Assembly: GCA_017517965.1 (NCBI GenBank)
Contig: JAFWXR010000024.1
Coordinates: 1-64,000, forward strand
Reading direction: 5' to 3'
Length of the DNA: 64,000 nucleotides
From: Clostridia bacterium
GTDB taxonomy: Bacteria > Bacillota > Clostridia > Oscillospirales > Feifaniaceae
A program made the position numbers and the translations under genes. The number at the start of each line of letters is the position of its first letter. The first letter of the stretch is position 1. This document shows positions 3,059-51,946 of the stretch, in pieces. The notes under the pieces were generated by a model. The model did not search any database, was not told the DNA's origin, and saw only the letters and a program-made list of their open reading frames with translations.

Positions 3059-4047
3059 TAAAAAAAGTCAAAATCGGGCAAATTGGCATAGGACATAATC
3101 ATGCAGAGGGAAAAATGCTTGCAGTACGAAAATTTCCTGAACTTTTTGAGGTTGTGGGCTATGCCGAGGAAAACAAAGAGTGGGTTGAAAAGAGGGGCAA
3201 TCTTCCTTGCTACAAGGATTTACAGAGATTAAGCGTCGAAGAAATAATTGAAAAGTCAGATGCAGTTTTGGTTGAATGTGACGTACCGGATTTAACAAAA
3301 TTTGCTAAAAAGTGCATAGATGCAGGTAAACACGTTCATATCGACAAGCCAATAAGCGGTACTTTGGATGAATTTGAAATGCTTTTAACTGCAGCCAAAG
3401 AAAAAAAGCTTACTGTTCAAACGGGATATATGTATCGCTATAATTTTGCGATACAAAAGCTTATGGATATGATAAACTCAGGTGAATTAGGCGAAATTTA
3501 TCAGATAGACGCTGAAATGAGTACGTATCACTCAAAAGAGTACAGACAGTGGCTCAGGCAGTTTAAAGGCGGTTCAATGTATATTTTCGGTTCTCACCTT
3601 ATCGATTTGATTGTAAGTATCTTGGGTGAACCGAAAAAAGTTTATCCGTTTATCAAACAAACCGGATTTGAAGGTGTTTATTCGGATGATAACACTTTTG
3701 CAGTTTTGGAGTATGACAAAGCAATTGCAAAAATAACCAATCTTTCCGTAGAAGTAAACGGCTGGGGAATGAGAAGATTTGCCGTTATGGGAAGTAAAGG
3801 TACCGTTGAGATAAAACCGATTGAGCTTGATGTGGAAATGACTAAATCCACAACAGATATTGCACCAGACAGATATCGGGACATGAAAGAAAAAGTCGAT
3901 GTAAAAGATGTTCCCACCCTTTCCCGATATGATGAAATGATAAAAGATTTTTACGGCTCTGTTATCGGTGAAAAAGCAAATCCATATTCCTACGAGCATG
4001 AATTTGCAGTTCAAAGAACACTTTACAGAGTAGTGGGGGAAAACTGA
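3058..4047 (+). CDS. Gfo/Idh/MocA-family oxidoreductase, apparently starting at ATA
   Basis: Family hallmarks are the Rossmann start KKVKIGQIGIGHNHAEG, the HIDKPISG strand (DKP lysine region) and the downstream sheet domain. The first in-frame ATG (3115) would cut off the first beta strand and the GxGxxxA loop. Between the upstream in-frame stop and that strand there is no ATG, GTG or TTG. GGAGGG at 3045-3050 lies 7 nt before an ATA at 3058, which overlaps the preceding TAA stop. I therefore place the start there (329 residues). A sequencing error or an ATG-to-ATA change is possible. Likely an NAD(P)-dependent sugar or inositol dehydrogenase within the operon. Confidence 0.8.
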   Translation: MKKVKIGQIGIGHNHAEGKMLAVRKFPELFEVVGYAEENKEWVEKRGNLPCYKDLQRLSVEEIIEKSDAVLVECDVPDLTKFAKKCIDAGKHVHIDKPISGTLDEFEMLLTAAKEKKLTVQTGYMYRYNFAIQKLMDMINSGELGEIYQIDAEMSTYHSKEYRQWLRQFKGGSMYIFGSHLIDLIVSILGEPKKVYPFIKQTGFEGVYSDDNTFAVLEYDKAIAKITNLSVEVNGWGMRRFAVMGSKGTVEIKPIELDVEMTKSTTDIAPDRYRDMKEKVDVKDVPTLSRYDEMIKDFYGSVIGEKANPYSYEHEFAVQRTLYRVVGEN

Positions 4048-4048
4048 T

Positions 4049-5113
4049 ATGCCAAAGATACTTATAAAAAACGGCAGGGTCTGGGACGGTGAAAAGTTTT
4101 ATTTTGCCGACGTTTTGACCGATGACGGAAAGATAAGTAAAATTGAACAGAAAATAGACGAAAAAGCAGACTTTAAATATGATGCAGACGGTAAAATAGT
4201 ATCGGCAGGTCTTGTGGATTCTCACGTTCATATGAGGGGGATAAACAGAACGTTCGGCATACATGCTGAACTGAGCAGTATTCCTTTCGGTGTAACGGCG
4301 GCGGCTGACGCGTGGGGCGCCCGTGGCGACAAAGCCTTGCTTGATACGTTTTTGCTTAAGAACGTTATATACGTGCCTGCGGAAATTCGCGAAAACAAAG
4401 CGTATTTTGACAAAGCAGAGAGCTTGCTTGAAAAATACGGCGATAAGGTAGTGGGTTTAAAGGTTTGCTTTGATACTGAGCAGGCTGACGTAAGGGACGT
4501 AAGTCCGCTTCGTGAGGCTGTGGAATACGCCGAAAAGAAGAATCTTATCGTTATGGTACATTCTTCAAATCCTCCCGTTAGTATGGAGGAGCTTTTGAGC
4601 GTGTTAAGAAAAGGCGATATACTCACACATGCGTATCACGGCGGACGAAACAACGTCAGCGATGACGGCTTTGAATGTATAAAGTCGGCAAAAAAGCGGG
4701 GCGTTATTATTGATATCGGATATGCAGGTCACGTACACACGGATTTCAAGGTGCTTGAAGAGGGCATCGCGTGCGGTGCGATTCCCGACGTTATAAGCAC
4801 TGACATAACAAAGTTCAGCGCTTACAAAAGGGGTGGCAGATACGGTATGACCATGTGTATGAACATAGCAAGGCATCTGGGTATGAGTGAAGAAGATATT
4901 TTCCGCTCGGTAACGTCAAATCCCGCAAAGGCACTCGGCAAAGAAAACGAATGGGGATACCTTAAGGTCGGCAGATGTGCGGACGTTGCGGTTTTCAAAT
5001 ATTGTAATGAAGGCTTTGACATGACGGACAAAGCCGGCAACCGTGTTGCAAGTGAAAATGGATACAGATGTGTCTTAACGATTGCAGACGGTGAAGTAGT
5101 TTTTGCAGATTAA
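4049..5113 (+). CDS. Amidohydrolase/deacetylase-family metallohydrolase
   Basis: The 354-residue amidohydrolase-superfamily protein shows metal ligands in the expected order: His59 and His61 (DSHVHM), a candidate carbamylated lysine Lys138 (VVGLKVCF), His171 (VMVHSS), His194 (ILTHAYHG) and Asp252 (ISTDITK). It resembles the dihydroorotase-like group annotated as amidohydrolase/deacetylase metallohydrolases (COG3964 type). The ATG begins 1 nt after the upstream stop. In this operon it could open a lactone or amide ring or remove an acyl group from the substrate; which one cannot be read from sequence. Confidence 0.82.
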   Translation: MPKILIKNGRVWDGEKFYFADVLTDDGKISKIEQKIDEKADFKYDADGKIVSAGLVDSHVHMRGINRTFGIHAELSSIPFGVTAAADAWGARGDKALLDTFLLKNVIYVPAEIRENKAYFDKAESLLEKYGDKVVGLKVCFDTEQADVRDVSPLREAVEYAEKKNLIVMVHSSNPPVSMEELLSVLRKGDILTHAYHGGRNNVSDDGFECIKSAKKRGVIIDIGYAGHVHTDFKVLEEGIACGAIPDVISTDITKFSAYKRGGRYGMTMCMNIARHLGMSEEDIFRSVTSNPAKALGKENEWGYLKVGRCADVAVFKYCNEGFDMTDKAGNRVASENGYRCVLTIADGEVVFAD

Positions 5114-5135
5114 ATTTTGAAAGGAAGATAGAAAA

Positions 5136-6116
5136 ATGAAAGCAATGCTTGTTGATGAAAAACAGAATTTAGTATGGTCGGACGTAGCAGATCCGGTCAT
5201 TAAGGATGATGAGGTGCTTGTAAAAATTTATGCGGCAGCACTTAATCGTGCAGACCTGCTTCAGAGACAGGGTAAATACCCTTCACCTGCAGGCTGTCCC
5301 GAATGGATGGGCCTCGAAATTGCAGGCGTTATCGTTGAAACGGGTAAGGAGGTTACAGGCTGGAAAGTCGGCGACAGAGTTTGTGCACTTTTAGGCGGCG
5401 GCGGATACGCTGAATACGTTGCAGTTAAATACGATATGCTTATGCCCGTACCCAAGGGACTTACGATGGAAGAAGCATCTGCACTTCCCGAAGCATATGC
5501 AACGTCGTATCTTAATCTGTTTATCGAAGGACACCTTGAAGCAGGTCAGACAGCGTTTGTTCCTGCCGGTGCATCAGGTCTTGCATCAGTTGCAATCCCG
5601 ATGGCAAAGGCATTCGGTGCAAGGGTTATAACCTCCGTACTGTCCGATGAAATCGCAGAAAAGATTAAGGATTTAGGTGCTGACGTAATTATCAATTCTA
5701 CCACACAGAGCGTGGAAGAAATATTAAAGGCTGAAGAAGAAAATGGCACACCCGTCAACGTTGCTATGGACTGCTTGAGCGGTGAAACGCTTGGTAAGAG
5801 CCTGCCGTACATGGCAAGAGGCGGCTACTGGATAGTTATCTCGACACTTGCAGGTATAGAAACTAACGTACTTCTCAGACCGCTTCTCACAAAAGGCTTA
5901 CACCTTGTCGGAAGTATGCTCCGCAACAGAACACCCCAGTTCAAGGCGTACATTCTGTCGGAACTTGTTAAGAACGTATGGCCCAAAATCGAAAGCGGTG
6001 CTATAAAGCCGTCCATTTATAAGGTGTTACCTATGGCTCAGGCTGAAGAGGCACATGCAATTCTCGAAAGAAGCGAAAATATAGGAAAAGTAGTTCTGCA
6101 GGTATGTCATGAGTAA
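5136..6116 (+). CDS. NAD(P)H:quinone oxidoreductase-type MDR protein (zinc-independent)
   Basis: The 326-residue protein belongs to the quinone-oxidoreductase branch of MDR enzymes (PIG3/TP53I3-like). It shows ALNRADLLQRQGKYP near the N-terminus, a GWKVGDRVCALL strand, and a cofactor domain with FVPAGASGLASVAI. No structural or catalytic zinc ligands are visible. AAAGGAAG precedes the ATG. It is the second MDR enzyme of this operon and is co-transcribed with the permease that overlaps its 3' end. A detoxification or reductase step with NADPH is likely; the substrate is unknown. Confidence 0.85.
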   Translation: MKAMLVDEKQNLVWSDVADPVIKDDEVLVKIYAAALNRADLLQRQGKYPSPAGCPEWMGLEIAGVIVETGKEVTGWKVGDRVCALLGGGGYAEYVAVKYDMLMPVPKGLTMEEASALPEAYATSYLNLFIEGHLEAGQTAFVPAGASGLASVAIPMAKAFGARVITSVLSDEIAEKIKDLGADVIINSTTQSVEEILKAEEENGTPVNVAMDCLSGETLGKSLPYMARGGYWIVISTLAGIETNVLLRPLLTKGLHLVGSMLRNRTPQFKAYILSELVKNVWPKIESGAIKPSIYKVLPMAQAEEAHAILERSENIGKVVLQVCHE

Positions 6117-6984
6117 GAATAAATCCGTGCCTTATGCACTTTTTGTAATGCTTTTGTGGGGTTCGCTTTACCCCATGGTGAAACTCGGATACGGTGCGTA
6201 TAACATCACGACAACGGGTGACATTCTGTTTTTTGCAGGTGTTCGCTTTACCGTGTGCGGTGCACTTATATGCCTGTATACCCTTATTAAAGACAAGGCT
6301 TCTTTTAAAGACGTCAAAGGCGCAATAGTACCCGTTTTACTGTCAGGTCTTTTTGCAATTATCCTGCATTACGGTTTTATGTACAGCGCGTTGAAACTGA
6401 CGGACAGTTCTAAAACCGCAATATTAAAGCAGGTCGGTGCATTATTCTACGTTTGCTTTTCGTCATTGTTTTTCAAGGACGATAAGCTTACCATAAAGAA
6501 ACTGATTGGCGTAATTCTGGGCTTTGCCGGAATTATTGCAATAAATGCAAACGCTCAGGGAATCAGTTTCAATATCGGTGATGCGCTGATTATTGCCGCC
6601 TCCTTCTGTACCGTTTTCTCAAACGTAATCAGTAAAAAGGTGTTTCGCTCAGTCAAGCCGATTACGGCAACGGGCGTATCGCAGTTTTTCGGCGGTGTCG
6701 TTTTACTTATTGCCGGAAGGCTTTTCGGCGGCAGTATGAGTATTGCTCCCGACAAATCTGCATTTATTATGGTATACATATTCTTCGCATCAATCGTCAG
6801 CTATTGTATCTGGTTTACGATAGTTAAAAACGGTGAGTTGTCGAAACTGTTTATTTTAAAATTTGCAGAGCCTGCATTCGCATGCGTATTCGGTGCAATG
6901 CTTTTGGGCGAAAATATATTCAATATTCAGTATATTCTGGCATTTTTGCTTATCGCAACGGGAATATACGTTTCCAACAAATAA
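6109..6984 (+). CDS. EamA/DMT-family transporter
   Basis: The 291-residue integral membrane protein has about ten hydrophobic helices in two EamA repeats. The first begins at PYALFVMLLWGSLYPMVKLGYG and includes ALKLTDSSKTAIL; the second ends with a LLGENIFNIQYILAFLLIATG segment. The ATG overlaps the end of the upstream gene by 8 nt, so translation is coupled. As the last gene of the AraC-controlled operon it is the likely importer or exporter for the pathway. DMT transporters move many metabolites, so the substrate cannot be named. Confidence 0.88.
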   Translation: MSKNKSVPYALFVMLLWGSLYPMVKLGYGAYNITTTGDILFFAGVRFTVCGALICLYTLIKDKASFKDVKGAIVPVLLSGLFAIILHYGFMYSALKLTDSSKTAILKQVGALFYVCFSSLFFKDDKLTIKKLIGVILGFAGIIAINANAQGISFNIGDALIIAASFCTVFSNVISKKVFRSVKPITATGVSQFFGGVVLLIAGRLFGGSMSIAPDKSAFIMVYIFFASIVSYCIWFTIVKNGELSKLFILKFAEPAFACVFGAMLLGENIFNIQYILAFLLIATGIYVSNK

Positions 6985-6998
6985 TTGTAGCATTATCA

Positions 6999-7035
6999 AA
7001 AACCCGAACACGCAAGTGTTCGGGTTTTCTTTTTT
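6999..7035 (+). terminator. Strong intrinsic terminator ending the catabolic operon
   Basis: A 13-bp perfect stem (6999-7011 with 7016-7028), a GCAA tetraloop and a C followed by TTTTTT. It closes the six-gene operon just after the EamA permease. Confidence 0.93.
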
Positions 7036-7073
7036 GTCCGTTCATGGTATAGTAGTGATAAGGATGTGATTAT

Positions 7074-7886
7074 ATGAAAATAAAGGTGCTTATTGACAAT
7101 ATATCGCAGGGGGAACTGCTCTGTGAGTGGGGACTTGCGATATATATCGAATATAACGGCAAAAAGATTTTGCTTGATACGGGCACGACGGGCGATTTTG
7201 TAAAAAATGCAGATATGCTTGGCGTTGATATTGCCGATATTGATTTCGGGGTGCTCTCCCATGCCCATTACGACCATTCCGACGGTATGCCCTCGTTTTT
7301 TGAAAGGAACAAAAAGGCGGTATTTTATCTTCGCGGAGGTGCTGACGAGAATTGCTATAAGCTGACCGATGAGGGTTATGAGTACATAGGCATAAAAAAG
7401 GGCATTTTAACGGAATATGCCGACCGTATACGTTACGTCAAAGACGATTTCAAGCTTGAAGAAGGGATATATCTTATACCGCATAAGAGCGAAGGTCTTG
7501 ATAAAATCGGAAAAGACGCCTGTATGTACGTAAAATCGGGTGAAAATTACTCTGTTGAGGAGTTTTCACACGAGCAGAGCCTCGTTTTTGAAACGGAAAA
7601 AGGGCTTGTCATATTCAACAGCTGTTCACACGGCGGTGCCGACAACATTATCAAAGAAGTGGAAAAGACCTTTGAAAACAGAAAAATCTATGCAATTATC
7701 GGCGGTTTCCACCTGTTCAGGACGGATGATGAGGGTGTTTACGCCTTTGCAGACAGGGTGTCGGACACGGGTATAGAAAAAATATTTACCGGTCATTGTA
7801 CGGGTGAGCGTGCCATGGATTTATTAAAAGAAAAACTCGGGAATAAGGTGCAGGCATTTTATTCGGGCTTTGAAACAGAAATTTAA
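7074..7886 (+). CDS. Metallo-beta-lactamase-fold hydrolase (COG1237-like)
   Basis: The 270-residue MBL-fold protein carries the signature LSHAHYDHSDG (HxHxDH), an aspartate strand KKILLDTGTTGDF, a downstream histidine at NSCSHGGADNI and a final GFHLF. The arrangement matches the MBL group that includes archaeal ribofuranosylaminobenzene phosphate-pathway proteins (COG1237). It is probably a dinuclear-zinc hydrolase of unknown small-molecule substrate. It lies 74 nt upstream of the RelQ-like gene and may be co-transcribed with it. Confidence 0.85.
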   Translation: MKIKVLIDNISQGELLCEWGLAIYIEYNGKKILLDTGTTGDFVKNADMLGVDIADIDFGVLSHAHYDHSDGMPSFFERNKKAVFYLRGGADENCYKLTDEGYEYIGIKKGILTEYADRIRYVKDDFKLEEGIYLIPHKSEGLDKIGKDACMYVKSGENYSVEEFSHEQSLVFETEKGLVIFNSCSHGGADNIIKEVEKTFENRKIYAIIGGFHLFRTDDEGVYAFADRVSDTGIEKIFTGHCTGERAMDLLKEKLGNKVQAFYSGFETEI

Positions 7887-7960
7887 TATCAGGTTCATTG
7901 TTATATAACAAAAGTGTTGTAAAATGTTATAAAGAGGTGTCTGAAATAGATAAAGAAAAA

Positions 7961-8626
7961 ATGATAGAAAAGTTAATGTCCGATGAGTTTCTCCAATTTG
8001 TTGAAAAGAACACGAAACCGCTTGATACGATGCTTGCCTATTACAGATGTGCGGCTATGGAGGTTGAAACGAAATTCAGGGTTTTGAACGAGCAGTTTTC
8101 GCTTCAATATGACAGAAATCCGATAGAAAGCATAAAGACGAGAATAAAGTCAAAGGACGGTATTATCCGCAAGATGAGGCGTAAGGGCGTGCCATTGAGT
8201 CTTTCGGAGATTGAAAGCAAGATAACGGATATTGCGGGAGTGCGTGTTATATGCTCGTTTCTTGATGATATTTATCTGCTTGCCGACTGGTTGCTTCAGC
8301 AGGATGATATCAGGCTCGTGGAGGTGCAGGATTACATAAAAGACCCGAAGGAAAGCGGTTACAGAAGTTTGCATATTATCGTTGAGATACCGATTTTCCT
8401 ATATAAAGAAAAACGTATAATGAAGGTCGAAATACAGCTTCGCACGATAGCAATGGATTTCTGGGCAAGTCTTGAACATAAACTGAGATACAAGAAAAAT
8501 ATTCCTCAGAGTCAGGTAGAGCAACTGTCAAAAGAACTTATCGAGTGCGCGCAGATAAGCTCGGACCTTGATACGCGTATGGGTGAAATAAGAGAACGCA
8601 TATCAAAAGCAGAATATCTTGAATAG
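7961..8626 (+). CDS. relQ: Small alarmone synthetase, (p)ppGpp synthetase RelQ/YjbM type
   Basis: The protein is about 221 residues and has only the RelA/SpoT synthetase domain. It shows IKSKDGIIRKMRRKGVPL, the ITDIAGVRVIC strand, the KESGYRSLHIIV substrate loop and VEIQLRTIAMDFWASLEHKLRYK. HD hydrolase, TGS and ACT domains are absent, as in RelQ. It makes (p)ppGpp from GTP/GDP and ATP in the cytosol. The start is uncertain: ATG 7961 is used, but AGAGGTG at 7933-7939 points to an ATA at 7946, and a TTG lies in frame at 7898. TTGTTATATAACAA at 7898-7911 is a perfect palindrome. Confidence 0.88.
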   Translation: MIEKLMSDEFLQFVEKNTKPLDTMLAYYRCAAMEVETKFRVLNEQFSLQYDRNPIESIKTRIKSKDGIIRKMRRKGVPLSLSEIESKITDIAGVRVICSFLDDIYLLADWLLQQDDIRLVEVQDYIKDPKESGYRSLHIIVEIPIFLYKEKRIMKVEIQLRTIAMDFWASLEHKLRYKKNIPQSQVEQLSKELIECAQISSDLDTRMGEIRERISKAEYLE

Positions 8627-8627
8627 A

Positions 8628-8656
8628 AAAAGCAGGTGATTTCACCTGCTTTTTTT
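8628..8656. terminator. Bidirectional terminator between relQ and the ABC exporter
   Basis: The stem AGCAGGTG pairs with CACCTGCT around 8631-8650, flanked by A-rich sequence on the left and a seven-T run on the right. It therefore works for both convergent genes. The stop of the minus-strand ABC gene overlaps the T-run. Confidence 0.88.
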
Positions 8657-10442
8657 AATCAAGTTGTGCCGTATATAGTTTGTAATATGCCCCGTGAGCC
8701 TTTAAAAGTTCTTCGTGGGTACCGCTTTCAAGAATGCTTTTGTCTGCAATATACATTATGCGGTCGCAGTTCTTTATAGTTGAGAGACGGTGCGCAATGA
8801 TAAACGACGTTCTTCCTTTGAGAAGATTGTTTAGCCCTTTCTGCACGAGAAGTTCCGTCCTTGTATCCATTGCGGAAGTTGCTTCGTCAAGAATAAGAAT
8901 ACCTGGGTCGGAAAGCAGGGTTCTTGCAAAACTGATAAGCTGTCTCTGTCCTGCGGAGAGGGAAGCGCCTCTTTCACTCACTACGGTATCGTAGCCCTTG
9001 GGAAGTGATATGATAAAATCGTGCGCACAGACGGTTTTTGCGGCGGCAATTGCTTCTTCATCCGTCGCACCAAGTTTGCCGTACTTGATGTTGTCCATTA
9101 TAGTACCCGCAAAAATGAAGGTATCCTGAAGCATAACACCCATCTGTGAACGAAGTGAACGAAGAGTCACGTCGTGAATGTTGTAACCGTCAACGGTAAT
9201 CTTTCCGGATTTGATATCGTAAAAACGGGAGAGAAGGTTGACTATTGTCGTCTTGCCCGCACCCGTGGGACCTACCAGTGCGATTGACTGACCGGCATTT
9301 ACCGAAAAACTCACGTTTTCAAGTATGGGACAGTCTTCTTCGTATTCGAAACATACGTCACAAAATTCTACGTTACCCGTAATGGGAGGCAGTTTTATTG
9401 CACCTTCTTCATCGTGAATGAGACTTGGCGTATCAAGAATCTCAAATATTCTTTCAAGATATGCCGCAACGTCCTGAATCTGATTATAAAGGTTTCCAAG
9501 ATTGATAAGAGGCTGCCAGAAACGCTTGCAATAGGTTGCCATAGCAAGAATTACACCTACGGGCAAAAGCGACGTTCCGCCTATTGCAAAATAGTAGATG
9601 AGACATGTCATAAGTGCTGAAACGAGCTTAAACAAAGGGCTCATCGTATGTTGCAGATATCTCGCATTTATAAGAGAATTTTTACAGTCGGTTGCCATAT
9701 TTTCTGCAATCTGAAGATTTGTATCTTCACGGGAGAAGGACTGCGTTATACGCATACCGTTGATGCTTTCCTGATAATAAGCGTTGATATTTGAGTTTTT
9801 GTTGGAATGTATACGTGCCCTGCGGCGTATTGCCTTTTTCGTGAATATAATGTATACGAAAAACGGAATAAACCCCGTCAGTATAATTACAGATAACTTC
9901 ACGTCTGTCGCAAACATAAAAAATGGAATGATAACAAGACTGAGAAGTTCTATAACGATATTAACGATGCCGTTTGCAAAAAAGTCGGCAATAGTGTTGA
10001 CGTAGTTTACGACACGCACCATAATTTTGCCGTGCGGACGTGAGTCAAAATAATCAAAAGGTAAAGTCTGCAGATGTTCAAACAGATCTTTTCGTATTTC
10101 GGAGACAATCGTCTGCCCTGTTTTGATACAAATTTTGCCTTTAATCTGTGAAGTTACCATTATGACAACCGTAAGCAGAGCACCTATAAGCCCTGTGATA
10201 ATTATGCCTCTTATGTCTTTTGCGGGGATGAACTCGTCTGTTATAAGCATAAGAAGATAGGGGATTGCAAGTGCGGCAAGAATTGAAATCAGACTTGTGA
10301 TAAATGCTGCAATAAGACTTTTTGCATGACGCCTGATATATACTCCGCTACGTTTCAGATGCTCTATACTGAATTCGGATTCAAGTATTTCATCTACGTC
10401 ATATTTGTTGCGGCGGGGAAGTTCGGATGTTTTTGTGCTCAT
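8655..10442 (-). CDS. ABC exporter half-transporter, catalytically competent subunit
   Basis: The 595-residue protein has an N-terminal six-helix type IV exporter domain and a C-terminal nucleotide-binding domain. The NBD has Walker A GPTGAGKTT, signature LSAGQRQ (G to A at the second G), Walker B ILILDEATSAMD with the catalytic glutamate, and H-loop IIAHRLSTI. Its start overlaps the stop of the upstream ABC gene by 4 nt (ATGA). The two together resemble heterodimeric multidrug or lipid exporters (BmrCD, TM287/288, MdlAB), this one carrying the consensus catalytic residues. The substrate is unknown. Confidence 0.92.
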   Translation of the reverse strand: MSTKTSELPRRNKYDVDEILESEFSIEHLKRSGVYIRRHAKSLIAAFITSLISILAALAIPYLLMLITDEFIPAKDIRGIIITGLIGALLTVVIMVTSQIKGKICIKTGQTIVSEIRKDLFEHLQTLPFDYFDSRPHGKIMVRVVNYVNTIADFFANGIVNIVIELLSLVIIPFFMFATDVKLSVIILTGFIPFFVYIIFTKKAIRRRARIHSNKNSNINAYYQESINGMRITQSFSREDTNLQIAENMATDCKNSLINARYLQHTMSPLFKLVSALMTCLIYYFAIGGTSLLPVGVILAMATYCKRFWQPLINLGNLYNQIQDVAAYLERIFEILDTPSLIHDEEGAIKLPPITGNVEFCDVCFEYEEDCPILENVSFSVNAGQSIALVGPTGAGKTTIVNLLSRFYDIKSGKITVDGYNIHDVTLRSLRSQMGVMLQDTFIFAGTIMDNIKYGKLGATDEEAIAAAKTVCAHDFIISLPKGYDTVVSERGASLSAGQRQLISFARTLLSDPGILILDEATSAMDTRTELLVQKGLNNLLKGRTSFIIAHRLSTIKNCDRIMYIADKSILESGTHEELLKAHGAYYKLYTAQLD

Positions 10443-47881: not shown

Positions 47882-47892
47882 GAGTGAGAAAA

Positions 47893-49353
47893 ATGAGTTT
47901 TTTATCAAAAAAACAGAATTATACGATGCTCTGTGATTTCTATGAACTCACTATGGGCAACGGTTATTTCCGCAGGGGAATAGGTGACAGAAAAGTATAT
48001 TTTGATATGTTCTTCCGCAAGGTGCCCGACGGTGGCGGTTTTGCCATTATGGCGGGTCTTGAGCAGGTTATAGAGTATCTTAATGACCTTCATTTTTCAA
48101 AGGAAGACATAGAATTTCTGCGTTCAAAGGGTTGCTTTGATGAGGGATTTTTAAAATATCTTGAAGATTTCAAGTTTGAATGTGACGTTTATGCAATTCC
48201 CGAGGGTACACCCATTTTCCCGGGTGAGCCCGTTATAACGGTCTGCGGTCCTGCGGTGCAGGCACAGCTTCTTGAAACGTTTATTCTGCTGACGGTAAAT
48301 CATCAGAGTCTTATTGCCACAAAGGCAAACAGAATAGTCCGTGCGGCACAGGGAAGACCCGTTGCCGAGTTCGGTTCAAGAAGGGCGCAAGGCCCTGCAG
48401 GCGCAGTGCTCGGTGCACGTGCGGCATATATTGCAGGCTGTACGGGTACGGCTTGTGTGCTCAGTGACGAGCTTTTCGGCGTTCCCTGCAGCGGAACGAT
48501 GGCACATTCATGGGTGCAGATGTTTGACAGTGAATACGAGGCGTTTAAAGTATATGCCGAGGAATATCCTGACAATACTCTGCTTCTCGTTGATACCTAC
48601 AACGTGCTTGAAAGCGGTGTTCCCACTGCAATCAAGGTGTTTGATGAGGTGCTCAAGCCTTTGGGCAAGCGTCCTCTCGGAATAAGAATTGACAGCGGTG
48701 ACATCACGTATCTGTCAAAGCGTGCAAGAAAGATGCTTGATGCGGCAGGGTATGAGGATTGCCGTATATTCGTAACGAATTCACTCGACGAGTATATAAT
48801 CAGCGACCTTATATCACAGGGTGCGTGTGTTGACAATTTCGGTGTGGGCGAAAGGCTTATCACCTCAAAGAGCGAGCCCGTGTTCGGCGGTGTGTACAAG
48901 CTTGCGGCGGTTGAGGACAAGGATGGAAACATAGTCCCCAAAATCAAGATCAGTGAGAACGTGGCAAAGATATCGACACCGCATTTCAAGAAGCCGTACA
49001 GACTTTTTGAGCGTGAAACGGGCAAGGCGATTGCCGATCTTATCTGTGTATACGACGAAACGGTAGACGATACGAAACCGCTCGTTCTGTTCGACCCCGA
49101 TTATAAGTGGAAAAAGAAAAAGGTTACGAACTTCGTTGCGAAAGAACTTCAGATACCCGTATTTATCGGCGGTAAGCAGGTATATCAGTCACCCGACATC
49201 AAGGAGATAAGAGAATACTGCGCTCAGCAGGTAGGTACTCTGTGGGATGAAGTTTTAAGATTTGAGAATCCGCACAGTTATTACGTTGACCTTTCACAAA
49301 AACTGTGGGATATCAAGCAGGACCTTCTTGAAAAGGGAGGCGTCAAGGCGTGA
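47893..49353 (+). CDS. pncB: Nicotinate phosphoribosyltransferase
   Basis: The 486-residue enzyme has MLCDFYELTMGNGYFRRG, FFRKVPDGGGFAIMAG, AEFGSRRAQGP, GTACVLSDELFGVPCSGTMAHSW (catalytic His region) and the phosphate-binding GIRIDSGDITYLSK. It converts nicotinate and PRPP to NaMN in NAD salvage. ATG 47893 is chosen with AGGAG 9 nt upstream; an in-frame GTG at 47884 lies closer to the ychF stop. It overlaps the DUF554 gene by 4 nt. Confidence 0.96.
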   Translation: MSFLSKKQNYTMLCDFYELTMGNGYFRRGIGDRKVYFDMFFRKVPDGGGFAIMAGLEQVIEYLNDLHFSKEDIEFLRSKGCFDEGFLKYLEDFKFECDVYAIPEGTPIFPGEPVITVCGPAVQAQLLETFILLTVNHQSLIATKANRIVRAAQGRPVAEFGSRRAQGPAGAVLGARAAYIAGCTGTACVLSDELFGVPCSGTMAHSWVQMFDSEYEAFKVYAEEYPDNTLLLVDTYNVLESGVPTAIKVFDEVLKPLGKRPLGIRIDSGDITYLSKRARKMLDAAGYEDCRIFVTNSLDEYIISDLISQGACVDNFGVGERLITSKSEPVFGGVYKLAAVEDKDGNIVPKIKISENVAKISTPHFKKPYRLFERETGKAIADLICVYDETVDDTKPLVLFDPDYKWKKKKVTNFVAKELQIPVFIGGKQVYQSPDIKEIREYCAQQVGTLWDEVLRFENPHSYYVDLSQKLWDIKQDLLEKGGVKA

Positions 49354-50084
49354 TTCCGGGAACAGGTACTTTGGTAAACGCCGCCGCTATAATAGTGGGA
49401 ACAGTAATTGGAATACTTTTTCGCAAAGGTCTCTCGGAAAAACTCAAAACCAATCTGCAGAATGCGATATTTATCTCGGTCATTATAATGGGTATTGCAG
49501 GTGCGCTTGCAAACTGCATAAAGGTGACCGAAAACGGTATTGAAACGACCGATTTGCTTCTTATGGTAATATCGCTTGCAATCGGCACGGTTATAGGTGA
49601 ACTTTGTAAAATAGACGTCGGTTTTGAAAAAATCGGCAAGGCACTCGGAAATAAGTTTGCAGGACACGGTGACGGTGACACCTTCGTCAAAGGCTTCGTG
49701 TCGGCATCCGTAATTTTCTGTGTTGGTGCAATGGCAATTGTCGGCAGTATTGAAGACGGTATGGCAGGCAATCCGCATATGCTTTACATTAAGGCACTTC
49801 TTGACGGTGTTACCTCGATGATTCTTGCCACAACACTCGGTCTTGGGGTTGCATTTTCCGCGCTGGCGATTATAATATATCAGGGGGCGATAACTCTGCT
49901 GGCGGTAGTTGCTGGAAGTTTTATTCCGGCTGACGTTATATCGCAGATGTCGCTTGTGGGCAACGTGCTCATTATGTGTATCGGCTTTACCACGCTTGAT
50001 ATAAAGAAAATCAACGTTGCAAATATGCTGCCGTCAATATTTATTCCGGCGGTATATGCACTTATTAAAAATATAATATTGTAA
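49350..50084 (+). CDS. DUF554 (YdfK-like) membrane protein
   Basis: The 244-residue polytopic membrane protein starts IPGTGTLVNAAAIIVGTVIG and shows FVKGFVSASVIFCVGAMAIVG, DGMAGNPHMLYIKALLDGV and IMCIGFTTLDIKKINVANMLP, the DUF554 hallmarks. The family is a putative transporter with no established substrate. The start is GTG overlapping the pncB stop (GTGA), with GGAGG 10 nt upstream in the pncB end. Confidence 0.88.
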   Translation: MIPGTGTLVNAAAIIVGTVIGILFRKGLSEKLKTNLQNAIFISVIIMGIAGALANCIKVTENGIETTDLLLMVISLAIGTVIGELCKIDVGFEKIGKALGNKFAGHGDGDTFVKGFVSASVIFCVGAMAIVGSIEDGMAGNPHMLYIKALLDGVTSMILATTLGLGVAFSALAIIIYQGAITLLAVVAGSFIPADVISQMSLVGNVLIMCIGFTTLDIKKINVANMLPSIFIPAVYALIKNIIL

Positions 50085-50089
50085 ATTTA

Positions 50090-50280
50090 CAGGTGTCGAA
50101 TGGGTTTTATACTCGATTCGGTGAAAAGGGAAGCAGGTGTAAGTCCTGCACGAACTCGTCGCTGTAAGTGGGAGGGGTGTTTCATACCATTGGCAATTTG
50201 CCGAGAAGGGAAGCGCTCCGTTGAACACAAGTCAGAAGACCTGCCGGTAGATAATGCATACCACGAGTAATTGGTACAGG
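50090..50280 (+). promoter_or_regulatory. Cobalamin (B12) riboswitch
   Basis: It contains the conserved aptamer blocks in order: GGTGAAAAGGGAAGCAGGTG with AAGTCCTGCA, CGCTGTAAGTGGGA, GCCGAGAAGGGAAG and GTCAGAAGACCTGCC (the B12 box side). A terminator hairpin at 50292-50322 follows and then a ribosome binding site, so adenosylcobalamin or a related corrinoid should cause premature termination. A TATAAT at 50072-50077 is a likely -10. It controls the DUF4430 and S-component genes, giving strong evidence that these concern B12. Confidence 0.95.
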
Positions 50281-50291
50281 CAAACTATTAT

Positions 50292-50322
50292 GGCCTTTTA
50301 CTGTGTGTAAAAGGCCGTTTTT
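50292..50322 (+). terminator. Riboswitch expression-platform terminator
   Basis: The perfect 10-bp stem GGCCTTTTAC (50292-50301) pairs with GTAAAAGGCC (50307-50316), with loop TGTGT and GTTTTTA, lying between the B12 aptamer and the first coding region. This is the transcription-control element of the riboswitch. Confidence 0.92.
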
Positions 50323-50341
50323 ATTTAAAGGAGAGAGAAAT

Positions 50342-50719
50342 ATGAAAAAGATTTTAGGAACATCAGTCGTAGTCATACTTGCAGTTGTAATGGTATTCGT
50401 ATACCTGCACTTCGGGGAGAAAACTGCTGACGGAAGTAAAAACGTAACGGTTGAAGTCACCTCACAGAGCGGAGAGGTGACAAGCTACGACGTTGAAACA
50501 GACGCTCTTTATCTCGTAGAAGTGATGGAGGAGATAGAGGCGCTTACCTTTACGGTTGATGACGGTATGATAATGACGGTAAACGGCGAAACGGCGGATT
50601 ATAACGTAAACGGTGCATACTGGGCACTCTATGTCAACGGGGAATACGGAAACTACGGCGCGGACAGGCAACCCGTAACGGACGGCGACGTATTTGGAAT
50701 TACTTATACGGTGGCATAA
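50342..50719 (+). CDS. DUF4430 (transcobalamin-like) membrane-anchored protein
   Basis: The 125-residue protein has an N-terminal signal anchor (KKILGTSVVVILAVVMVFVY) and an extracellular DUF4430 domain (VTVEVTSQSGEVTSYDVETD; NVNGAYWALYVNGEYGNYGA; GDVFGITYTVA). The WALYVNGEY motif is shared with the beta domain of transcobalamin and intrinsic factor, which contacts cobalamin. Placement directly after a B12 riboswitch and before an ECF S component implies it captures cobamides outside the cell for the transporter. AAAGGAGAG precedes the ATG. Confidence 0.85.
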   Translation: MKKILGTSVVVILAVVMVFVYLHFGEKTADGSKNVTVEVTSQSGEVTSYDVETDALYLVEVMEEIEALTFTVDDGMIMTVNGETADYNVNGAYWALYVNGEYGNYGADRQPVTDGDVFGITYTVA

Positions 50720-50720
50720 A

Positions 50721-51242
50721 ATGGAAAAAACAAAAATAACCTCCCGTGAAATAGTCACGGTCGGTCTTATGGTGGCTGTGATAGAGGTGTGCAAAATTGC
50801 TTTTATGGGCCTTCCGAACATTGAACTGACGTCCTTTTGGATAATCTTGTTTGCACTATATTTCGGAAAAAGCATTTATTTTGCAATTCCCGTATTTATC
50901 GTGATTGAGGGGCTTATATTCGGTATCAATCTGTGGTGGATAATGTATCTTTACACGTGGCCACTTCTTGCAATTGCAGTAAGAATGTTTAAAAAGGTAA
51001 AGTCGGCATTTTTCTGGAGTGTTTTTTCGGGCGTGTTCGGACTTTTGTTCGGTGCACTTAATTCTCTGGTCTATATTTTTCTTGGGGAGACGCTGTCAGC
51101 AGGACTTAAAAGTGCGTTTGCATGGTGGATAGCGGGGATTCCCTATGACCTTATACACGGTGCAGGAAACTTTGTGATAATGCTGATACTATACAAGCCG
51201 ATAACAAATATTATAGAAACATACAAGAAAAAGCAGGGGTAA
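50721..51242 (+). CDS. ECF transporter S component, B12-riboswitch controlled
   Basis: The 173-residue membrane protein has about six helices (SREIVTVGLMVAVIEVCKIA, FWIILFALYFGKSIYFAIPV, IHGAGNFVIMLILYKP) and a short cytosolic tail. Size, helix pattern and the SREIVTVGLM start fit S components of energy-coupling-factor transporters. Being in a B12-riboswitch operon, cobalamin or a precursor is the likely cargo. EcfA/EcfT subunits must come from elsewhere. The ATG lies 1 nt after the DUF4430 stop. Confidence 0.85.
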   Translation: MEKTKITSREIVTVGLMVAVIEVCKIAFMGLPNIELTSFWIILFALYFGKSIYFAIPVFIVIEGLIFGINLWWIMYLYTWPLLAIAVRMFKKVKSAFFWSVFSGVFGLLFGALNSLVYIFLGETLSAGLKSAFAWWIAGIPYDLIHGAGNFVIMLILYKPITNIIETYKKKQG

Positions 51243-51253
51243 ACCCTGCTTTA
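51231..51253. terminator. Bidirectional terminator after the ECF S component
   Basis: The 8-bp stem AAGCAGGG (51231-51238) pairs with CCCTGCTT (51244-51251), with loop GTAAA. It is preceded by A-rich and followed by T-rich sequence and shared with the convergent gene ending at 51251. Confidence 0.8.
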
Positions 51254-51946
51254 TTCTATATCTGTGACGTTTACCGTCATATACGTTCTGCCGTTCATCA
51301 GCGTTTCGCTGCGAAGGACTATACCGTTTTCGGTGGAAATCCAGTACTTTTCGGTCTGCGAAAGGCGTGGATACCTGTATTCGAGATAGATTACTCTCGT
51401 GTTACCGAGTGTGTCAAACCGCATCTGTGACACGTTGGACTCTGCCGCACCGTAAAACCATTCAAGGTCGGGCAGGCCGAGCAGTCGGTCCGAAGTGAAA
51501 ATGCTGTTTGACGGCAAAGTGTAACTTTCGTCCGTCTGATTATCACTCACGTTTACACCCCTTGAGGTTATGGTGTAGGTGGTAAGGAGTTTCTGTCCTG
51601 CACCGTAGTAACGCACGGTTTCACGGGAACCGTTTTTCCTGTATTTGATATAGGTCGTCGACGTGTTTTCCGACGAGGGCGACAGAGTAAAAGTTATATC
51701 CATAGAGAGATTTGAGGGCTTCTCATAACTTTTGAGCATAGCTTCAAGTGACTCTTTATCTATCTCAAGCGTTTCGTAACTATCCTCGTCAACCTCGAGT
51801 TTATCACCCGAAAATTCCGCAGAATCCATCGGCGTTGAGGGCGAAGTCGTCACTATTGTGCCTGCCGAGGGCAGCCACATAAAGAGCAGTACGGATATAA
51901 CCGCAAATATTAAAATTGTAAAAAAGAGTTTGCCTTTCTCCTTCAT
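51251..51946 (-). CDS. Membrane-anchored extracytoplasmic protein of unknown function
   Basis: The 231-residue protein has an N-terminal signal anchor (KGKLFFTILIFAVISVLLFM), an acidic linker (SGDKLEVDEDSYETLEIDKE) and a beta-rich domain (LSMDITFTLSPSS, STTYIKYRKNGSRETVRYYG, YPRLSQTEKYWISTENGIVL, MTVNVTDIE). The repeating strand pattern recalls LolA/outer-membrane lipoprotein-sorting-like folds that bind lipid, seen in some Firmicute lipoproteins. That is inference. It follows mnaA by 14 nt and may belong to the same operon. Confidence 0.6.
   Translation of the reverse strand: MKEKGKLFFTILIFAVISVLLFMWLPSAGTIVTTSPSTPMDSAEFSGDKLEVDEDSYETLEIDKESLEAMLKSYEKPSNLSMDITFTLSPSSENTSTTYIKYRKNGSRETVRYYGAGQKLLTTYTITSRGVNVSDNQTDESYTLPSNSIFTSDRLLGLPDLEWFYGAAESNVSQMRFDTLGNTRVIYLEYRYPRLSQTEKYWISTENGIVLRSETLMNGRTYMTVNVTDIE

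Follow-up and report, generated by a model that had tools for sequence, protein, structure and literature searches.

A cobalamin riboswitch-controlled operon of a DUF4430 protein and an ECF S component in a Clostridia bacterium: a probable member of the known CbrS-CbrT type of systems

The closest characterised system to the operon described here is ECF-CbrT of Lactobacillus delbrueckii, in which the S component CbrT, encoded in the cluster nrdJ-cbrS-cbrT-pduO, binds and transports both cobalamin and cobinamide together with the ECF module (PMC5997447). The same report presents the ECF-CbrT structure (6FNP), gives 9.2 nM for the binding of CN-cobalamin, finds no competition by hemin and describes complementation of E. 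coli by CbrT together with the ECF module; cbrS is mentioned there as one of the clustered genes (PMC5997447). In L. intestinalis the genes run nrdJ, DUF4430, S component, cob(I)yrinic acid adenosyltransferase, a copy located on a Lactobacillus plasmid, and because this order matches that of the L. delbrueckii cluster we name the DUF4430 protein CbrS and take L. delbrueckii cbrS, by synteny, as a DUF4430 gene. A printed table for L. rhamnosus carries the label "Additional lipoprotein component of putative cobalamin ECF transporter", and its source also places a DUF4430 protein next to rtpR, which does not imply that the two are identical (PMC9963975). The type of system is thus already known as a prediction, and its CbrT part is proven. 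What is new here is a member of this CbrS-CbrT type controlled by a cobalamin riboswitch.

The window, that is the whole stretch of DNA that was analysed, comprises 64,000 nucleotides of a Clostridia bacterium (GCA_017517965.1, contig JAFWXR010000024.1, positions 1 to 64,000). On its + strand a cobalamin riboswitch is followed by a terminator, the DUF4430 ORF, the ECF S component and a hairpin:

50074..50262, + strand: cobalamin riboswitch aptamer (RF00174), found by cmscan over the full model (1-189) with 102.8 bits, gathering score 31.5, E 1.3e-24
50290..50318, + strand: intrinsic terminator stem-loop of the expression platform, a 12-pair stem with a T-rich tail behind it
50342..50719, + strand: DUF4430 protein of 125 aa (PF14478, 40.8 bits; AF2 model with pLDDT 91.6; Foldseek and VIA matches)
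50721..51242, + strand: ECF S component of 173 aa, CbrT family (profile match to 6FNP chain A; AF2 model with pLDDT 95.0; VIA matches)
51230..51252, both strands: terminator-like hairpin with a 9-pair stem (fold z -5.81 for 51205-51265)

A preceding sequence-only reading had proposed a cobalamin riboswitch with a clear terminator in front of this pair, and both elements are present: the aptamer is full length and scores far above the gathering level, while the stretch 50270-50335 containing the stem-loop folds at -18.1 kcal/mol (z -2.47). Position 50090, given as the start in that reading, falls 16 nt inside the RF00174 match. This match is the sole one found in the genome (1.43 Mb in 60 contigs, 75.7% complete). 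The DUF4430 ORF begins with an ATG at 50342, behind a ribosome-binding site recognised by inspection of the sequence, and the S component ORF with an ATG at 50721; the two genes are coupled, with 1 nt between them as read from the sequence. The hairpin that closes the operon lies between it and a convergent gene at 51251. Ahead of the riboswitch are pncB (nicotinate phosphoribosyltransferase, 47884-49353) and a gene for a DUF554 membrane protein (PF04474, 49350-50084). The riboswitch match overlaps the last 11 nt of the latter, and because of this overlap the promoter may sit in or before the upstream genes; a promoter-like site at 50086-50113, inside the aptamer, is a consensus match only. 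pncB and the DUF554 gene were left out as parts of the system because of their location before the riboswitch, and we know of no link of either to B12.

The assignment of the second ORF as an ECF S component held in both profile and fold comparisons. Searches of its sequence against Pfam and NCBIfam gave no match at E 1. Chain A of 6FNP was the one PDB sequence that a three-sequence S profile matched at E values up to 10 (E 2e-19, hmmsearch), and the single sequence gave the same chain at E 1.9e-12, followed by the next entry at 0.31 (phmmer). In the PDB this chain is labelled just "Membrane protein"; it is presumably the CbrT chain. With the predicted model Foldseek returned nothing at E 0.001; in VIA the 20 best rows, with Z 9.2-14.0, belonged to CbiM, BtuM and ECF S components before Z dropped to 4.9, and 6FNP is absent from the Foldseek and VIA matches listed. 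The window protein is therefore a CbrT homologue with the ECF S-component fold. Like CbrT, with which it shares homology along almost the entire chain (residues 12-173), it is a solitary S component with its ECF module encoded elsewhere and its partner gene directly upstream, whereas its identity to three Lactobacillaceae S matches is low (24-27%). Unlike the L. delbrueckii system, the window pair is under a cobalamin riboswitch and has neither nrdJ nor pduO beside it. EcfT is encoded in the genome (PF02361, E 1.6e-52), in a gene adjoining three ORFs, two of which look like EcfA ATPases and one like TruA, as judged by reading; EcfT and the two adjacent ATPase-like ORFs indicate that a shared ECF module is at hand. 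The substrate of the S component is most probably B12 or another corrinoid.

The protein encoded by the first gene consists of one anchor helix and one domain in its 125 aa. Pfam PF14478 matches at residues 59-123, well over the cut-off of 23.8 bits, and this is the only DUF4430 match found in the 75.7%-complete genome. The motif WALYVNGEY, on which the likeness to animal B12 carriers had been based, is present at residues 94-102. The proposed tethering to the membrane agrees with a hydrophobic N-terminal helix at residues 2-24, seen in the sequence and in the predicted structure, and since the protein has no Cys at all, this helix looks like a membrane anchor and not like part of a lipoprotein. 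The L. intestinalis and E. faecalis DUF4430 proteins differ in this respect, as they have a lipobox-like motif.

In the AF2 model the domain, about residues 32-125, has a fold like that of the transcobalamin beta domain. Foldseek gave 19 matches at E <=0.001, all of them 3U7Z or chains of transcobalamin, haptocorrin and intrinsic factor, and VIA gave Z 15.8 for 3U7Z and 13.4-14.6 for the three animal carriers, with the next row at 7.4. In sequence the signal is fainter. A DUF4430 profile against the PDB found 3U7Z at E 1.4e-33 and haptocorrin 4KKI at E 0.0094; with an 82-row DUF4430 profile the values were 5.8e-26 for 3U7Z, 0.002 for haptocorrin and 0.11-0.12 for intrinsic factor. In the alignment "YG...VNG...YW" of the DUF4430 family stands against "WG...IQG...YW" of haptocorrin. 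The claimed resemblance to the beta domain of animal B12 carriers is thus real at the level of fold and weak at the level of sequence. Human transcobalamin, intrinsic factor and haptocorrin (5NP4, 2BB5, 2PMV, 4KKI) share the beta-domain fold and a weak sequence likeness that includes the YW motif, but they combine this domain with an alpha6/alpha6 barrel, which is lacking in the bacterial, membrane-anchored window protein, and identity is 14-24%. That a beta domain on its own is able to hold a corrinoid is known from human transcobalamin, whose isolated beta domain binds cobalamin and has been crystallised with CNCbl as well as with cobinamide (PMC5599065).

The bacterial relative of known structure, RUMGNA_00854 of Ruminococcus gnavus (3U7Z), has 33-35% identity to the window protein and entered the PDB as "putative metal binding protein"; its name occurs in no paper of the open-licence literature searched. 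The same literature yielded no experimental study of any bacterial DUF4430 protein and nothing on a transcobalamin-like bacterial corrinoid lipoprotein. In the 82-row alignment Trp94 is invariant (82/82), and the Tyr of an "EYG" loop is kept in 78 rows and replaced by Phe in three, being missing, as aligned, only in the window protein, in which this loop is four residues shorter than in the family. The changed loop could weaken the interaction and speaks against tight corrinoid binding by the window copy. The role of a B12-capture domain proposed for DUF4430 is favoured by the beta-domain fold and weakened by the departure of this copy from its family at a conserved loop.

Conservation of the pair was followed by scanning genome contigs with the S alignment, which gave 210 relatives. 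The 80 best, from named genomes and by record title mostly Lachnospiraceae and other Clostridia, were retained. In 79 of them the S match is directly preceded, on its own strand, by a DUF4430 ORF; the remaining locus, L040, is cut off, with 269 nt before the contig end. The distance from the DUF4430 end to the S match ranges from -13 to 323 nt, with a median of 22. RF00174 exceeded the gathering score in front of DUF4430 in 43 of the 80 relatives (42/77 plus 1/3). The two always share a strand, with 40-445 nt between the riboswitch end and the beginning of the DUF4430 match, and RF00174 was found nowhere else in the 737,165 bases of these stretches. No other class of metabolite riboswitch reached the Rfam gathering level (0/80), the remaining Rfam matches being to tRNAs and, downstream of the pair in L022, to a single T-box leader. 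Linkage of the pair to riboswitches for something other than B12, which would have spoken against the sequence-only reading, was therefore not seen among these relatives. A simple pattern found no lipobox-like motif near the start of the 79 DUF4430 matches.

In the stretches of the other 37 relatives RF00174 was not found; in two of them, L040 and L077, the stretch is too short to accommodate it. It was likewise not found at L004 and L005, the two nearest pairs from the same family. Fifteen of the 37 are Butyrivibrio by record title; at Butyrivibrio loci such as L031, L032, L036, L041 and L051 no cobalamin riboswitch was detected with the DUF4430-S pair. An nhmmer search for missed riboswitches, with a DNA profile built from the 42 found and that of the window, added only L025, which Rfam confirmed; a riboswitch-like stretch in L015 (nhmmer E 1.1e-6) was not counted, as it is under the Rfam gathering score. 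The neighbours of the 37 comprise 133 proteins in 121 families, none of which accounts for more than 6 of the 133, and no common neighbour family emerged. Among the 25 families shown of these 121 are CbiB (PF03186) with four proteins, and porphobilinogen deaminase and S-methyl_trans with two each.

In the class to which the window genome belongs, 391 genomes were searched with the S profile and 119 of them gave matches (125 rows), the weaker of which may include other S components. Ninety of the 125 rows were examined: the 30 best, 30 in long ORFs and 30 further shorter ones. Among the 30 best, one of which is the window itself, DUF4430 is on the same strand in 29 and a riboswitch upstream in 14 (nhmmer E <1e-6). 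For the 30 S domains in ORFs of at least 700 aa, DUF4430 occurs within 5 kb upstream in 26 and a riboswitch upstream on the same strand in 5; two of the four loci without DUF4430 (L133 and L160) carry a riboswitch. The 30 further shorter ORFs have DUF4430 on the same strand in 25 cases (21 within 5 kb upstream) and a riboswitch in one. These counts are rough, because one DUF4430 profile was iterated on the same loci and the riboswitch profile was tuned to close relatives.

Within the family of the window, six of eight genomes (the window's own and seven others) have an S match, and in the stretches of this family DUF4430 was found in L012-L015 and not in L016 or L017. In L012 (4062-11465) the DUF4430-S pair follows a PocR-AraC regulator and has RACo and two URO-D family proteins around it, a setting which suggests corrinoid methyl transfer, possibly regulated together with uptake. 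L014 contains a long ORF in which two ABC_tran stretches and PF07155, PF20221 and PF12822 are over the Pfam cut-off, that is EcfA, EcfA' and S in one chain, and before it a CbiQ-like EcfT just under the cut-off and a DUF4430 protein. Over 3693-9609 the same locus runs from an SLH protein, whose likeness to an alpha/alpha toroid is weak (PF13243 with 18.2 and PF00432 with 17.6 bits, both under cut-off), to DUF4430, EcfT and the EcfA-EcfA'-S fusion; the SLH protein and DUF4430 could represent a transcobalamin split over two genes. On the - strand of L015 (9252-17647) an SLH protein with a PQQ-type beta-propeller and cadherin-like domains is followed by DUF4430 and then by ORFs reading as EcfT and as an EcfA-EcfA'-S fusion; the B12-riboswitch-like stretch below the Rfam gathering level lies at 17647-17404. 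In a scan of ten large ORFs, nine of them picked for holding DUF4430, seven contained both SLH and DUF4430. One of the seven (L134) is on the strand opposite to the S gene. Large SLH proteins with their own DUF4430 domain stand in L135, L137, L141, L143, L144 and L150, where a DUF4430 gene and an S domain in a long ORF lie nearby on the same strand.

On an E. faecalis plasmid the genes for DUF4430, an adenosyltransferase and a B12-dependent ribonucleotide reductase share 5.3 kb with one annotated "cobalamin ECF transporter"; there DUF4430 and S are not neighbours and are separated by an IS element and the other genes. In L. curvatus an LPXTG protein, DUF4430, EcfT, an ATPase and S are found together. 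On an L. kefiri plasmid EcfT, an ATPase and a distant S component stand together, and DUF4430 was not found there.

Starting from the riboswitch, terminator, gene order, protein families, folds, conserved pairing and the EcfT gene with its two ATPase-like neighbours, all of which are directly seen, we consider it probable that the operon is a B12-repressed corrinoid uptake unit of the CbrS-CbrT type, composed of a capture domain and an S component. At low intracellular cobalamin the riboswitch would let transcription past the terminator, a direction of regulation that we infer. Outside the cell the membrane-anchored DUF4430 protein would bind or retain corrinoids and hand them over to the adjacent CbrT-family S component, which would dock on the shared group II ECF module (EcfA, EcfA', EcfT) encoded elsewhere, with ATP driving the import. 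Both corrinoid binding by DUF4430 and the hand-over are deduced from homology and gene context.

The earlier claim of a Gram-positive B12 capture system is thus supported by the riboswitch, the fold and the homology to CbrT, although the type is not newly found (PMC5997447, PMC9963975). The likeness to Gram-negative systems lies in the role. The importer class of BtuF/BtuB and BtuG/BtuH differs from that of the window system, and none of these proteins is among the families and folds listed for the window proteins, an absence from a list that is weak evidence. BtuF/BtuB and BtuG/BtuH of Gram-negative bacteria provide extracytoplasmic capture ahead of the importer, which is the analogous function (for BtuG, PMC6143338).

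One competing reading concerns DUF4430 itself, which might be an assembly, docking or stability factor of the ECF transporter that does not bind corrinoids, its likeness to transcobalamin reflecting fold ancestry only. ECF-CbrT transports in E. coli from CbrT and the ECF module, so DUF4430 need not be essential and would there be at most an enhancer (PMC5997447); the changed "EYG" loop of the window protein and the distant long-ORF loci, in which DUF4430 is frequent (26/30) and a detectable cobalamin riboswitch rare (just 5/30), point the same way. We nevertheless judge a pure assembly role unlikely, as DUF4430 also occurs in S-layer-type proteins near such operons (seven of the ten scanned), where a docking factor would not need it, and the fold neighbours above the VIA gap are B12 carriers and 3U7Z.

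As to the substrate, cobalamin riboswitches also control precursor salvage, and the S component might take a precursor or fragment of the corrinoid pathway (cobinamide, cobyrinate or a CblT-like lower-ligand precursor) instead of complete B12. CbrT takes cobinamide as well as cobalamin (PMC5997447), cbrUVT is listed in a review as cobyrinate diamide uptake (PMC8123684), and CbiB (four) and porphobilinogen deaminase (two) among the 133 neighbours of riboswitch-less pairs suggest that some hosts may make or finish corrinoids. On the other hand, the closest solved relative binds CN-cobalamin at nanomolar level (PMC5997447), and the L. intestinalis operon with nrdJ and an adenosyltransferase points to the use of finished cobalamin; import of precursors alone appears to us quite improbable. 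Transport of another tetrapyrrole such as heme, or of another metal complex, has a precedent in the ECF-type heme uptake of Staphylococcus lugdunensis (PMC7299338) and a hint in the metal-binding label of 3U7Z, yet it is very improbable given the cobalamin riboswitch in the window and in over half of the close relatives with no other metabolite class among them, the S profile that matches 6FNP alone in the PDB, and the failure of hemin to compete for ECF-CbrT (PMC5997447).

Returning to corrinoid capture by DUF4430, the S-layer-type proteins invite a wider and much more tentative idea, in which an S-layer-anchored DUF4430 domain catches B12 and passes it to a membrane-anchored DUF4430 protein and from there to a CbrT-type S component, the animal carriers being descended from the capture domain or sharing ancestry with it, and the window operon being a minimal one-step form. 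NEAT domains offer a comparison, as they relay heme across the Gram-positive envelope. Direct proof of corrinoid binding by DUF4430 would be new, as would such a relay. The pair would give DUF4430 a function accessible to assay and connect the B12 carriers of humans with a domain found in bacteria. Since the human beta domain can be produced on its own and retains cobalamin binding, a working model for such an assay exists (PMC5599065). B12 shapes the growth of microbial communities, and many genomes of the class to which the window genome belongs carry the pair, as the S profile counts indicate. A 2019 reconstruction named the identification of B12 transporters in many gut bacteria an open problem (PMC6593275).

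With respect to B12 use in the window's own genome, the B12 enzyme and adenosyltransferase families PF01923, PF02965, TIGR02504, PF08331 and PF02572 gave no match in the 76%-complete assembly. This counts against the proposed uptake role, as do the riboswitch-less relatives, the metal-binding label of 3U7Z and the L. kefiri plasmid with no DUF4430 found. PF02310 was rejected as a B12 enzyme, its match being below the cut-off and located in an ORF whose sequence looks like IMP dehydrogenase. Elsewhere in this genome (G000:C43, L193, 746-3355, - strand) a FecCD-type ABC importer has neighbouring ORFs that look like a substrate-binding lipoprotein and like an ATPase. The genome-wide RF00174 search detected no cobalamin riboswitch at this locus, which could encode a second B12 system or a siderophore system.
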